From: an uncultured Prevotellaceae bacterium | GTDB lineage: Bacteria > Bacteroidota > Bacteroidia > Bacteroidales > Bacteroidaceae | Direction of reading: 5' to 3' | Assembly: GCA_900316355.1 (NCBI GenBank) | Contig: ONCQ01000025.1 | Span: 1 to 38,270 of the forward strand | Length of the DNA stretch: 38,270 nt | Shown here: piece by piece, positions 6,465 through 9,265 of the stretch | Layout of the letters: every line of letters starts with the position of its first letter | How positions within the stretch are numbered: the stretch's first letter is position 1 | Program-made: the position numbers and the translations under genes | Notes under the pieces: generated by a model | Seen by the model: the letters and a program-made list of their open reading frames with translations, nothing else | Told to the model about the DNA's origin: nothing | The model's database searches: none

Positions 6465-6803
6465 TCATTCCCCAAGCATCTCGCGCAACTCACTCTCCAA
6501 CAGCGGCAGATGGTTGATGATGATACTCCAGAGGATGTCGGAAGAGAGGCTGTCGTAGCCATGGATAATGTAGTTGCGTGTGTCCACAATCCTGCGGGCA
6601 TTCGTAATCTTGATGTCAGGGACAGCTTTCAGGACTCGGTTCATGGCTTCGCCCATAATCTCTATGTTCCGTTCCACCGCACGCCGAAGCATGAAGTTGT
6701 TATGGAACTCCTCAAATAGCATGGGCTTATCGTCGAAATAGCTGTTGATTTCCTCTACTGCGCCAAGCACATCATAGAGATATTTCTGAATCGTCTCATC
6801 CAT
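6465..6803 (-). CDS. hepT: HepT-like HEPN ribonuclease toxin
   Basis: 112 residues from ATG 6803 (MDETIQKYLYDVLGAVEEI). It is all-helical, with the family motif RNYIIHGY near residue 78: R, four residues, H, one residue, Y. The Arg and His form the HEPN RNase site, and the Tyr is the target of AMP addition by the partner MntA in characterised pairs. The length is normal for DUF86/HepT. Its start overlaps the end of mntA by 8 bases, so the two are coupled. The upstream in-frame extension to 6908 lies inside mntA and is not used. Expected role: RNA cleavage toxin restrained by polyAMPylation, serving plasmid or island stability or phage defence. Confidence 0.9.
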   Translation of the reverse strand: MDETIQKYLYDVLGAVEEINSYFDDKPMLFEEFHNNFMLRRAVERNIEIMGEAMNRVLKAVPDIKITNARRIVDTRNYIIHGYDSLSSDILWSIIINHLPLLESELREMLGE

Positions 6804-7101
6804 AGACGGCTGTCTTAGTTCGTTCGATATTACGCTTGAAGATGGGGTTGCGCACAGCTTTCTCCTCCACGAGATCCACCTCGCGTCCCAAGGCCTCCTG
6901 CAGCGCATCTTTCAGTTCGAAATAGTTGGTGAGGTAGTCGCCAATCTCATCCGTGTTGAAATCCACGAGGAAATCCACGTCACTCTCATCCGTGAAGCGT
7001 GGTGTCAGCACAGAACCGAAGACATACAGATGCCGCACCCTGTGCTTACGGCACAGAGCGGCGATGCGTGCGTGAGAGTGTTCAAGGAGACTATTCTTCA
7101 T
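6796..7101 (-). CDS. mntA: MntA-like minimal nucleotidyltransferase antitoxin
   Basis: 101 residues from ATG 7101 (MKNSLLEHSHARIAALCRKH). The catalytic motif GSVLTPRFTDESDVD (about residues 30-44) fits GS-x10-DxD exactly, and a third acidic residue comes in REVDLVEE near residue 78. MntA enzymes transfer AMP to the motif tyrosine of HepT and so neutralise it. The longer frame to 7191 has a hydrophobic AT-rich leader without coding character and spans the promoter, so it is rejected. A -7 box TAnnTTTG lies at 7121-7128. Confidence 0.9.
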   Translation of the reverse strand: MKNSLLEHSHARIAALCRKHRVRHLYVFGSVLTPRFTDESDVDFLVDFNTDEIGDYLTNYFELKDALQEALGREVDLVEEKAVRNPIFKRNIERTKTAVYG

Positions 7102-7120
7102 CGTTTTTTGTTTTACGTCA

Positions 7121-7128
7121 CAAAAGTA
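7121..7128 (-). promoter_or_regulatory. -7 box for mntA-hepT
   Basis: On the minus strand the sequence is TACTTTTG, an exact TAnnTTTG box, 20 bases before the chosen mntA start. I see no clear TTTG at the usual -33 distance. Confidence 0.6.
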
Positions 7129-7332
7129 CATATTATTGTGAAAAATGAAAAAAGAAAAAGTAAAAAATAGCGATAAATGGTGAATTTTCACGAACTTTTA
7201 CCGATTCCCCACCATCTTTCTCGCATAATATACATCATCTGCCCATTGTTATTTGCAAGAATGTGCGCAACAAAGAAAGCGCCTCAAAGTTAACGATTTA
7301 ACTCGAATAACTGATGCCGTAGGCTCTATTTT

Positions 7333-7696: not shown

Positions 7697-7733
7697 TCAT
7701 CTTCTGTCATCTGTTTAAGGGATTAAGGGTTCA
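7697..7733 (+). repeat. Left copy of 37-bp direct repeat flanking the abi cassette
   Basis: This 37-bp segment, starting TCATCTTCTGTCATCTG and ending GGGTTCA, recurs in the same orientation at 8838-8874 with a single difference (A versus G at repeat position 26). The two copies enclose the abi promoter, leader RNA and gene; their starts are 1141 bases apart. Confidence 0.9.
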
Positions 7734-7801
7734 AAAAATCAGGACTCAGGCGCTATTTATATGTTTGATAGCATATTTTACACCTTTTTGAATGGGTCTT
7801 G

Positions 7802-7833
7802 TTTGGCCATTTCGGTGAAACAGCGTACTTTTG
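7802..7833 (+). promoter_or_regulatory. Bacteroidota-type promoter of the abi leader RNA and gene
   Basis: TTTG at 7802-7805 and TACTTTTG (TAnnTTTG) at 7826-7833, separated by 20 bases, match the -33/-7 consensus of the primary sigma factor of this phylum. Transcription would start about 7837-7840, some 60 bases before the ATG. Confidence 0.8.
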
Positions 7834-7837
7834 CGCT

Positions 7838-7895
7838 CGGATAGTTCCCGCCACGCTTCCCGAAGAACAGCGCACCAGGGCGGGACGGTTTTTTT
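7838..7895 (+). ncRNA. Candidate abiF-type structured RNA ending in a terminator just before abi
   Basis: TCCCGCC (7846-7852) pairs with GGCGGGA (7879-7885), enclosing a 26-base loop that itself can form CTT-CCCG-AAG (7856-7865). A run of seven T follows at 7889-7895 after CGG. The promoter at 7802-7833 would therefore make a roughly 58-base RNA terminated two bases before the abi ATG at 7898, with gene expression needing read-through. A conserved 'abiF RNA motif' upstream of Abi_2-family genes is known, and recent work treats such RNAs as antitoxins of AbiF. Assignment to that family here is from position and fold only. It could instead be a simple attenuator. Confidence 0.6.
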
Positions 7896-7897
7896 AT

Positions 7898-8791
7898 ATG
7901 GAATATACCAAACAACCTTTCACCATTGTCGAACAAATAGCAACGCTGAAACAACGGGGCCTCATCTTTGACGATGAGGCTGCTGCTGCGGAGGTGCTTG
8001 AAAACATCAGCTATTTTCGTCTGGCGGCATACTGGCGATTGATGGAGGACGATAGCAGCCGGCATCACTTTCGTGAGAACAGTCATTTCGAAGCGGCTCT
8101 CGACCTCTATCGCTTTGACAGCGAACTGAAATCGCTTGTTTTCCGCGCGATACAGATTATCGAAGTCGCCGTACGAACTCGGATGATTCAACACTTCTCC
8201 ATCAAGTTCGGTTCGTTCTGGTTTATGAAGAAGGAGTTGTTCATCAGCGAAGAACTGTTCCAGAATCATATGAGCAAATTGCGGGATGCCCTTGACAGGA
8301 CACTTGATGACTTCATCTTGGAGCATTTTAAGCAGTACGATACTCCCGATATGCCACCAGCATGGAAAACACTGGAAATGGCTACGCTGAGCACCCTTTC
8401 GCGCATATACAGCAATTTCTCCGATAATGTGACCCGTAAAGAAGTGGCGCGTAGCTTTGGGATTCCACAGCATGAATTTATGCGGAATTGGTTGGAGAAC
8501 TTGACAATCATTCGTAATGTTTGTGCTCATCATGCGCGTCTCTGGAATCGTCGATTTGCCATCAAGATGCGCTTGCCACATCGGTCGAGGCAGCCTTGGA
8601 TAAAAGAATTCGCCTTTCCTGAAGACAGACTTTATCCGCAACTGTGCGCGATTGCCTATTGGCTCAATGCCATTGATCCGTCTAACACATTTGCCACAGA
8701 ACTCAAAGGGCTGTTGGTATCGTATCCGACTGTTGATCCGCGAGCTATGGGATTTCCTGATAGCTGGCAGCAGGAACCCCTTTGGCAATAG
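7898..8791 (+). CDS. Abi_2 family (AbiD/AbiF-like) HEPN abortive-infection protein
   Basis: 297 residues from ATG 7898 (MEYTKQPFTIVEQIATLKQR). The N-terminal pattern P-x-T-x-x-x-Q-x-x-x-L-x-x-RG and SYFRLAAYW (about residues 38-47), the central LYRFDSELKSLVFRAIQIIE, and the C-terminal WLENLTIIRNVCAHHARLWNR with the HEPN motif R-x4-H near residue 210 are characteristic of Abi_2 (PF07751). Family members stop phage growth, presumably by RNA cleavage. The frame opens at 7799, but that stretch covers the promoter and the hairpin, so the later ATG is used. An overlapping minus-strand frame (7778-8851) is a shadow. The gene is a single unit between 37-bp direct repeats, next to two other toxin-antitoxin loci. 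Confidence 0.9.
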   Translation: MEYTKQPFTIVEQIATLKQRGLIFDDEAAAAEVLENISYFRLAAYWRLMEDDSSRHHFRENSHFEAALDLYRFDSELKSLVFRAIQIIEVAVRTRMIQHFSIKFGSFWFMKKELFISEELFQNHMSKLRDALDRTLDDFILEHFKQYDTPDMPPAWKTLEMATLSTLSRIYSNFSDNVTRKEVARSFGIPQHEFMRNWLENLTIIRNVCAHHARLWNRRFAIKMRLPHRSRQPWIKEFAFPEDRLYPQLCAIAYWLNAIDPSNTFATELKGLLVSYPTVDPRAMGFPDSWQQEPLWQ

Positions 8792-8837
8792 TTCCCTTCT
8801 CCCTCGCCCCGTGGCGGGGATTCTTGTATCCGCATAT

Positions 8838-8874
8838 TCATCTTCTGTCATCTGTTTAAGGGGTTAAGGGTTCA
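8838..8874 (+). repeat. Right copy of 37-bp direct repeat flanking the abi cassette
   Basis: 36 of 37 bases are identical to 7697-7733. It lies 46 bases after the abi stop and 14 bases before the premature stop of the truncated toxin at 8889, so the cassette boundary and the toxin break nearly coincide. Confidence 0.9.
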
Positions 8875-8888
8875 GACGCTGTTGCAGA

Positions 8889-9008
8889 TTAGGGCCGAGC
8901 GAAGGATTTAATTATCGTTATAATGTTCTTGAAGAGCTGAGGGTTAGACTTCTTCCATTTGCGTAGCGTCTTGTCCGCTTCCCTGGAATAATCAATGGTA
9001 TAGATCAT
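8889..9008 (-). pseudogene. Truncated YoeB/Txe-type toxin remnant
   Basis: From ATG 9008 the frame gives 39 residues: MIYTIDYSREADKTLRKWKK, then SNPQLFKNIITIIKSFARP and a stop. The pattern (strand, A-D-K-x-L, W-K-K-S-N-P, L-F-K-x-I) is the N-terminal half of RelE-superfamily YoeB/Txe toxins, which cut mRNA in the ribosome and are normally about 85 residues. The catalytic C-terminal half is missing; the sequence beyond is the abi-cassette repeat. Its ATG overlaps the antitoxin stop (ATGA). It is too short to be an active RNase. Confidence 0.75.
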
Positions 9009-9265
9009 AGGCTTTCGAAATAGCGTTGCATCTCCTCTGGGGTGCTACACTTGATGGTTTCGCCATTCGCATATTCTCGGCGAGCTTTGTTGATGGAGCG
9101 TCGCATGACGGGAGTGATGGCATTGTCATCGTTGATGTTGGCCACACGCACCGATGCCACGCCACGTATCATCTTCAGAGCCCGTTTGATATCGGCCACG
9201 AGCGCATTATCTTCCAGAGTGATAACCATCTGGGGCGGCTTGGAAAAAGATGTTGCTACTGCCAT
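9005..9265 (-). CDS. Antitoxin-like protein paired with the toxin remnant
   Basis: 86 residues (MAVATSFSKPPQMVITLEDN). It has a strand-helix N-terminus and a helical C-terminus (SINKARREYANGETIKCSTP, then EEMQRYFESL) like antitoxins of RelB/YefM-type pairs in Bacteroidota, and the four-base ATGA overlap with the YoeB-like remnant supports the pairing. Middle residues about 27-50 (KMIRGVASVRVANI) resemble the segment often annotated in small Bacteroidota antitoxins. With the toxin truncated it is an orphan. A TATCTTTG box on the minus strand at 9295-9302 may drive it. Confidence 0.65.
   Translation of the reverse strand: MAVATSFSKPPQMVITLEDNALVADIKRALKMIRGVASVRVANINDDNAITPVMRRSINKARREYANGETIKCSTPEEMQRYFESL

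Follow-up and report, generated by a model that had tools for sequence, protein, structure and literature searches.

A cassette at positions 7802-8791 of a 38,270-nucleotide contig from an uncultured Prevotellaceae bacterium of the gut (the whole contig is hereafter termed the window) very probably constitutes a self-contained AbiF/AbiF-RNA toxin-antitoxin module of the type III-like kind, running from promoter to the end of the toxin gene and having a short structured leader RNA as its antitoxin. AbiF toxin-RNA systems are already known as a kind; what is new is a widespread class of their RNA, termed class B, that is unrecognized by Rfam. We document here the parts of the module and their conservation, the covariation of the RNA, its linkage to Abi_2 genes, the co-diversification of RNA and protein, and the survival of RNA copies beyond the loss of the toxin.

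Organization of the locus

Read along the + strand, the cassette begins with a -33/-7 element (TTTG at 7802-7805, a spacing of 20 nt and TACTTTTG at 7826-7833), which follows a consensus that we take to be the promoter kind of Bacteroidota and by which 7802-7833 is assigned as the promoter. Next lies a predicted terminated leader RNA of ~55-58 nt (7838-7895), the putative AbiF antitoxin RNA of class B, whose start is placed from the promoter and whose end is placed from a T7 tract (7889-7895). Its conserved abiF-type fold, delimited by matches to RNA models and by covariation, occupies 7846-7885: an outer stem, P1, pairs TCCCGCC (7846-7852) with GGCGGGA (7879-7885), and an inner stem of 3 bp, P2, pairs 7854-7856 with 7870-7872. 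P1 and the T7 tract together form a predicted intrinsic terminator, T runs being found in related leaders as well. The tract ends two bases upstream of the ATG (7898-7900) of an ORF (7898-8791) encoding a predicted AbiF/Abi_2 HEPN ribonuclease toxin of 297 aa. The layout is, by sequence, that of a type III toxin-antitoxin system, with the RNA gene 5' of the toxin gene, a terminator between them and a single promoter. Promoter, leader with its stem, T7 tract and Abi_2 ORF had all been marked in an initial annotation of this DNA, and each is present where it had been placed.

The ORF product scores 169.3 bits with PF07751 (Abi_2; curated cut-off 25.6) and 249 bits with the PADLOC AbiD model, and it keeps the HEPN RNxxxH motif as RNVCAH at residues 206-211 (R206, H211), aligned with RNSCCH of PDB 8vz6. 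A search of solved structures returned one good match, chain A of 8vz6 (E 1e-58, 202 bits), which is titled "Abi family protein" and aligns with residues 6-297; the available text of PMC12737573 describes this entry as PbAbiF, and it represents a solved complex of an AbiF protein with its RNA, AbiFr (Zilberzwige-Tal et al., as cited in PMC12373285 and PMC12737573). PbAbiF and the window locus have in common near full-length homology, the RNxxxH motif and an RNA leader 5' of the gene. The closest to 8vz6 among the proteins fetched, at 90% identity, is encoded by G017, a genome from the genus to which the window belongs, and the nearest relatives of PbAbiF here have class A leaders that Rfam recognizes, whereas the window leader is of class B. 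The solved complex is closest to class A loci. Two points weigh against a toxin-antitoxin reading of the window locus: its protein is only 38% identical to the printed 8vz6 residues, and the nearest relatives of that homologue have another RNA class.

Relatives of the protein on phages and plasmids (58 and 421 records, respectively) are all <60% identical, so that the window cassette is traced to none of them, and we set aside these two candidate origins. A search of the window Abi_2 protein (P0001) against viral contigs, which reaches close relatives only, gave no match.

A leader RNA class below the Rfam threshold

At gathering thresholds Rfam returned no match in the whole window. At a loose threshold the abiF model (RF03085) aligned to 7847-7885 with the correct fold, scoring 25.2 bits where the cut-off is 37; of the covariance check proposed in the initial annotation, fold and alignment therefore held and the threshold score was not reached. 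The identification of the leader as an abiF RNA, though below the Rfam cut-off, was borne out with a model built here. Upstream regions were collected beside Abi_2 homologues in 15 of 61 relatives, 59 of 139 same-genus genomes and 70 of 393 genomes of the order (the last by means of the Pfam model), the window genome being counted in each. The leaders comprise class A, corresponding to the Rfam consensus; class B, that of the window; an intermediate, Bi; and class C. The Rfam family and the window RNA have in common an outer GC stem, a bulged A, a short inner stem and a place before an Abi_2 gene; they differ in the remaining parts, where the Rfam consensus reads AGCCUCUCAA...GCUCAAA and class B reads CGCUUCCC...CAGCGNACC. 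From 36 distinct class-B and intermediate leaders of this order, 30 entered an alignment (A2) and served to build the RNA model R1, which matches the window leader, itself one of those 30, at 7846-7891 with 63.1 bits.

Rfam, run on 20 loci, gave six abiF matches above its cut-off (two class A, three Bi and a Legionellales locus, L008) and missed all 14 class-B loci tried, some of which are near-copies of one another. Class B is the commonest class among the leaders collected (31 of 81 rows), which suggests that surveys using the Rfam cut-off undercount AbiF systems in Bacteroidota. The order of promoter, RNA, terminator and gene is kept across these leaders. TAnnTTTG occurs in 37 of 38, accompanied by TTG at the right distance in 34 of the 38; P1 was found in 37 of 38, and at least four consecutive T lie within 13 bases 3' of it in 35 of those 37. 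Among the rows of an 81-protein set that have an RNA class, TAnnTTTG is present in 63 of 65, versus 11 of 65 when they are read backwards.

Some individual leaders have further features. One of class A (L019, G023:C18) has a hairpin of 119 rather than 38 bases and keeps the outer stem. Related class C leaders (L063, L065 and L066) share an extension of ~45 bases 5' of the hairpin that is absent from classes A and B. At L012/L188 (G018:C151:485-589) two tandem class-B motifs precede one toxin gene with two stops, an arrangement comparable to the two motifs of RCd22 from Clostridioides difficile; the same locus also has a diverged direct repeat of ~95 bp.

Covariation of the predicted stem

The fold energy of the window RNA alone is unremarkable (z -0.22) and uninformative; support for the RNA comes from comparison among sequences. 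The stem covaries among the 30 leaders of A2. In an alignment of 49 distinct sequences fitted to the R1 model (A3), 92% of cells pair, seven of the ten P1/P2 pairs vary on both sides, and the covariation score is 0.307, as compared with 0.138 in shuffled alignments (0 of 500 as high) and at most 0.127 in slid controls. The number of further pair types was not above that of shuffles, of which 480 of 500 were as high for A2 and 249 of 500 for A3. The A2 leaders were picked by a pattern requiring a P1 of at least five pairs; this pattern and the fitting of A3 to R1 favor the fraction paired (the pattern does not favor compensatory changes), so that the argument leans on the compensatory changes and on the test made beyond the order. 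Covariation among homologous loci, on which the initial annotation had made its reading depend, is present in both alignments.

Several unpaired positions are also among the most conserved in A2, and these bear on an alternative in which the hairpin acts only in cis, as an attenuator limiting transcription into the gene, without antitoxin action in trans. The resemblance of P1 and T7, directly before the ATG, to a terminator is what such a role would predict, as are the T runs that follow P1 in nearly all leaders. A plain terminator, however, would have no need of highly conserved unpaired positions; the RNAs persist, moreover, where no intact toxin gene lies downstream (see below), and RCd22 of C. 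difficile is described, in the available text of PMC12373285, as acting in trans and binding AbiFCd, which it neutralizes. We consider a purely attenuating hairpin improbable and retain the antitoxin reading.

Linkage to Abi_2 genes outside the order

R1 contains no protein information, and linkage of its matches to Abi_2 genes is therefore independent support for class B as an AbiF RNA. When applied to 395 genomes across the phylum it gave matches in 49, including the window's genome. We followed up the 44 strongest matches from beyond the order, omitting one located at the start of a contig and any that were weaker. A full-length Abi_2 gene (>250 residues matched) starts no more than 64 nt downstream of 22 of these RNAs, and for two more a second RNA intervenes, the Abi_2 gene being ~600 nt distant; six RNAs stand before a partial gene, ten have none that was found (one with only 630 nt to inspect) and four are at contig ends. 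Away from contig ends, 22 of 40 RNAs are thus directly 5' of a full-length Abi_2 gene, in a set that comes largely from a single family (f132) of the phylum and does not amount to 44 independent cases. Two loci (L275, G694:C81; L276, G754:C29) contain pairs of class-B RNAs ~570-580 bp apart, in which full-length Abi_2 follows only the second; both belong to one family of the phylum.

RNA classes on the protein tree

Mapped onto a tree of 81 Abi_2 proteins, RNA class can be explained by 14 changes, versus 43.4 with shuffled labels (0 of 200 as low); the presence of near-identical rows favors clustering of whatever label is used. Class C forms one clade, class A requires two changes, and class B is spread around both; the window protein groups with two relatives of 71% identity, both of class B. 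Class B together with its own protein branches offers natural pairs for the study of RNase/RNA-inhibitor co-evolution and of pair exclusivity. Sixteen rows were labeled as having no RNA, of which seven form a deep separate Abi_2 branch without recognizable RNA and nine fall in the AbiF clade; five of these nine do have an RNA that was missed by the pattern or by the choice of start codon (L187, L158 and L008, by R1; L172, by eye; and L161), so that a recognizable RNA is missing from about four of the 74 AbiF-clade rows. ORFs for the tree, leader and repeat counts were called from ATG only, a procedure that gave none for L188 and L204, missed at least one Abi_2 gene that does not begin with ATG (in L171) and set starts too far upstream in L161 and L187. 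Duplicate loci of one place, and a leader at a contig start (L064), were dropped from the rows.

Persistence of the RNA without an intact toxin gene

Within the genus, R1 matched 34 of 139 genomes. There were 42 matches of at least 30 bits, and 38 places remain once three that lie at contig ends are excluded and the double motif of G018:C151 is treated as one. Of these, 16 have a toxin gene that is complete or almost so (one with two stops, one shortened), ten have a partial or broken gene, and none was found at 12 (two with <750 nt to inspect). A broken toxin gene or none therefore occurs at 22 of 38 RNA places in the genus, as compared with about four of 74 AbiF-clade toxins that have no recognizable RNA. 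Loss of the antitoxin is expected to come last in the decay of a module, and the order of loss suggested by these sequences, toxin before RNA, would fit such a role, as would the scarcity of toxins without RNA. The asymmetry could partly arise from size, in that deletions are likelier to spare a 46-base element than a 900-base gene. Chance, or a very diverged toxin that was overlooked, may also account for some of the toxin-less matches. Several toxin-less RNA copies keep a promoter and others are without one.

The window genome itself has four R1 matches: those on contigs C50 (the window) and C17 have intact toxins, that on C55 has an internally deleted toxin and that on C56 has none. Toxin-less copies raise the question of protection in trans, and with four RNAs and two intact toxins in one genome, cross-talk is testable within a single set.

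Predicted mode of action

By analogy with tested relatives, the locus is predicted to be transcribed, its RNA to bind and neutralize the protein, and the protein to be toxic. Transcription from one promoter would in most cases end at the hairpin and T7 tract of the RNA itself, giving a short abiF-type RNA, with occasional read-through yielding the mRNA of the Abi_2 HEPN RNase with the same RNA as its 5' leader. The free RNA would bind the AbiF dimer and block the RNase, in the manner of a type III-like antitoxin, the excess of terminated RNA over read-through mRNA setting the dose; were the RNA lost or diluted, for instance by phage infection or loss of the locus, the toxin would be freed and growth would stop.

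Much of this scheme has its counterpart in AbiFCd/RCd22, for which the available text of PMC12373285 describes a promoter, an abiF-motif RNA, a terminator, expression of the toxin by read-through from that one promoter, and the R/H catalytic pair. RCd22 differs in having two abiF motifs, a separate terminator, a ribosome-binding site and a transcription start 168 nt before the ATG; the window has one motif whose own stem is the terminator, and its T tract ends so close to the ATG that there is no space for a ribosome-binding site between them.

The initial annotation had proposed that the RNA restrains or guides the HEPN protein. Restraint is supported by homology to the tested systems and by RNAs that outlast toxin genes. 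Guiding would make the RNA a Cas13-like director of AbiF to target RNAs, an idea that draws on the proposal, in the available text of PMC12737573, that AbiF modules stand at the root of Cas13. The RNA is short, however, and ends at its terminator, and the 30 aligned leaders contain no variable segment of guide length, the only variable stretch being a loop of a few bases; having found nothing that supports guiding, we regard it as highly improbable and continue with the RNA as a candidate antitoxin.

A broader synthesis may be offered tentatively, and we hold it to be possible though rather doubtful: that among the AbiF antitoxin RNAs of Bacteroidota class B is the principal and older form, from which the class known to Rfam branched off later; that RNA classes and toxins form separate recognition groups; that toxin-less copies are kept as trans-acting protection against resident or incoming AbiF modules (RNA anti-addiction); and that the modules spread as tiny, recombinase-free, target-duplicating cassettes. 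In the literature searched, which covered few subscription papers, we recognized no description of a class-B RNA, of RNA copies lacking a toxin or of target duplications at AbiF loci, and the words solitary, orphan and direct repeat are absent from the text of PMC12373285 that was available.

Genomic neighborhood and flanking repeats

The module sits amid other toxin-antitoxin genes. To its left, on the - strand, is a HepT/MntA-type pair (6465-7191) whose Pfam scores of 67.6 and 49.3 bits are above the cut-offs and which lies below the NCBIfam equivalog cut-offs. To its right, beyond the right-hand repeat described below and also on the - strand (8891-9265), are a small antitoxin-like gene (9005-9265), which has no Pfam match over cut-off and is placed like an antitoxin, and a YoeB-like toxin gene that, compared with G152, has lost ~170 internal bases and is thereby broken. 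A paralogue on contig C36 of the window genome is also short. No phage genes were seen among the neighbors annotated around the cassette, whereas AbiFCd/RCd22 is described as prophage-borne in the available text of PMC12373285.

The cassette is enclosed by two copies of a 37-bp direct repeat on the + strand (7697-7733 and 8838-8874), identical at 36 of 37 positions, the right copy having G instead of A at position 26. Sequence comparison confirmed both copies as initially annotated, and none of 100 shuffles gave such a match. Further occurrences of the repeat without the gene, which the initial annotation had named as evidence against its reading, were not found in the assembly (3.16 Mb, 91% complete), where these two were the only copies detected.

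Direct repeats were scanned for without gaps, scoring +1 for a match and -3 for a mismatch, with a threshold of 18. In a preliminary look, pairing the upstream flank of one locus with the downstream flank of another gave scores of up to 15, a value exceeded by eight of 32 loci. In the full comparison, repeats of at least 18 flank 14 of the 74 Abi_2 ORFs with enough flanking sequence, versus 12 of 266 similar-size ORFs of the same stretches (p = 0.0002); the figures are 11 of 71 versus 11 of 265 (p = 0.002) when the window and near-duplicates are removed, and p is about 0.01 when hits in RNA-less rows are dropped too. The repeat sequences vary from locus to locus; both copies in G018 are the start of the same neighboring gene, and both in G006 end a short reading frame. 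Insertion with long target duplication would be expected to leave such a pattern.

The window repeats most likely record an insertion event in which the target was duplicated. Restriction-modification genes have been described as inserted with long target duplication (PMC3874152, available text), and there likewise a small addiction-type unit lies between direct repeats with no recombinase in the unit; those duplications are of ~100 bp and concern a different gene class, as against repeats of 37 bp and no empty site for the window. A search with each flank against 139 same-genus genomes gave none with both flanks together among the matches listed, and the single repeat copy at an empty site that the initial annotation had expected of relatives was accordingly not seen among them; a partial repeat match in G149 is single and in unrelated sequence. 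The proposal that the repeats allowed the cassette to move thus agrees with the enrichment of repeats at Abi_2 genes and lacks its empty site, and for this reason mobility by way of long target duplication is something that we infer, as likely, rather than observe.

The alternative is that the repeats are left over from local recombination unrelated to the cassette, the module not having moved by itself, and to this we give somewhat under an even chance. It gains from the missing empty site among the matches listed, from the neighboring ORFs that also lie between long repeats (12 of 266, many of these control repeats being in the same variable islands), from Abi_2 repeats that look like plain gene duplications (L183, L184, L176 and L177) and from the rearranged surroundings, where the YoeB-like gene beside the right copy is itself deleted internally. 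Local recombination accounts less readily for the enrichment at Abi_2 genes, at each of the three p values given above, or for repeats that vary by locus and that, in G018, both correspond to the start of a neighboring gene; target duplication on insertion remains our preferred explanation of the window repeats.

On plasmids, a Bacteroides fragilis pair and an IncX4 plasmid showed no long direct repeats and no clean empty-site case. A repeat scan of seven plasmid loci gave a single score >18, which was due to a second copy of the RNA rather than to a flanking repeat. On a Phocaeicola plasmid (L262), a stretch matching the start of a class-A-like leader recurs 3' of the Abi_2 gene. Two Abi_2 copies ~1.8 kb apart at L150 (G319:C11:3299-5679), which encode identical proteins and share one class C leader sequence, look like a recent tandem duplication.
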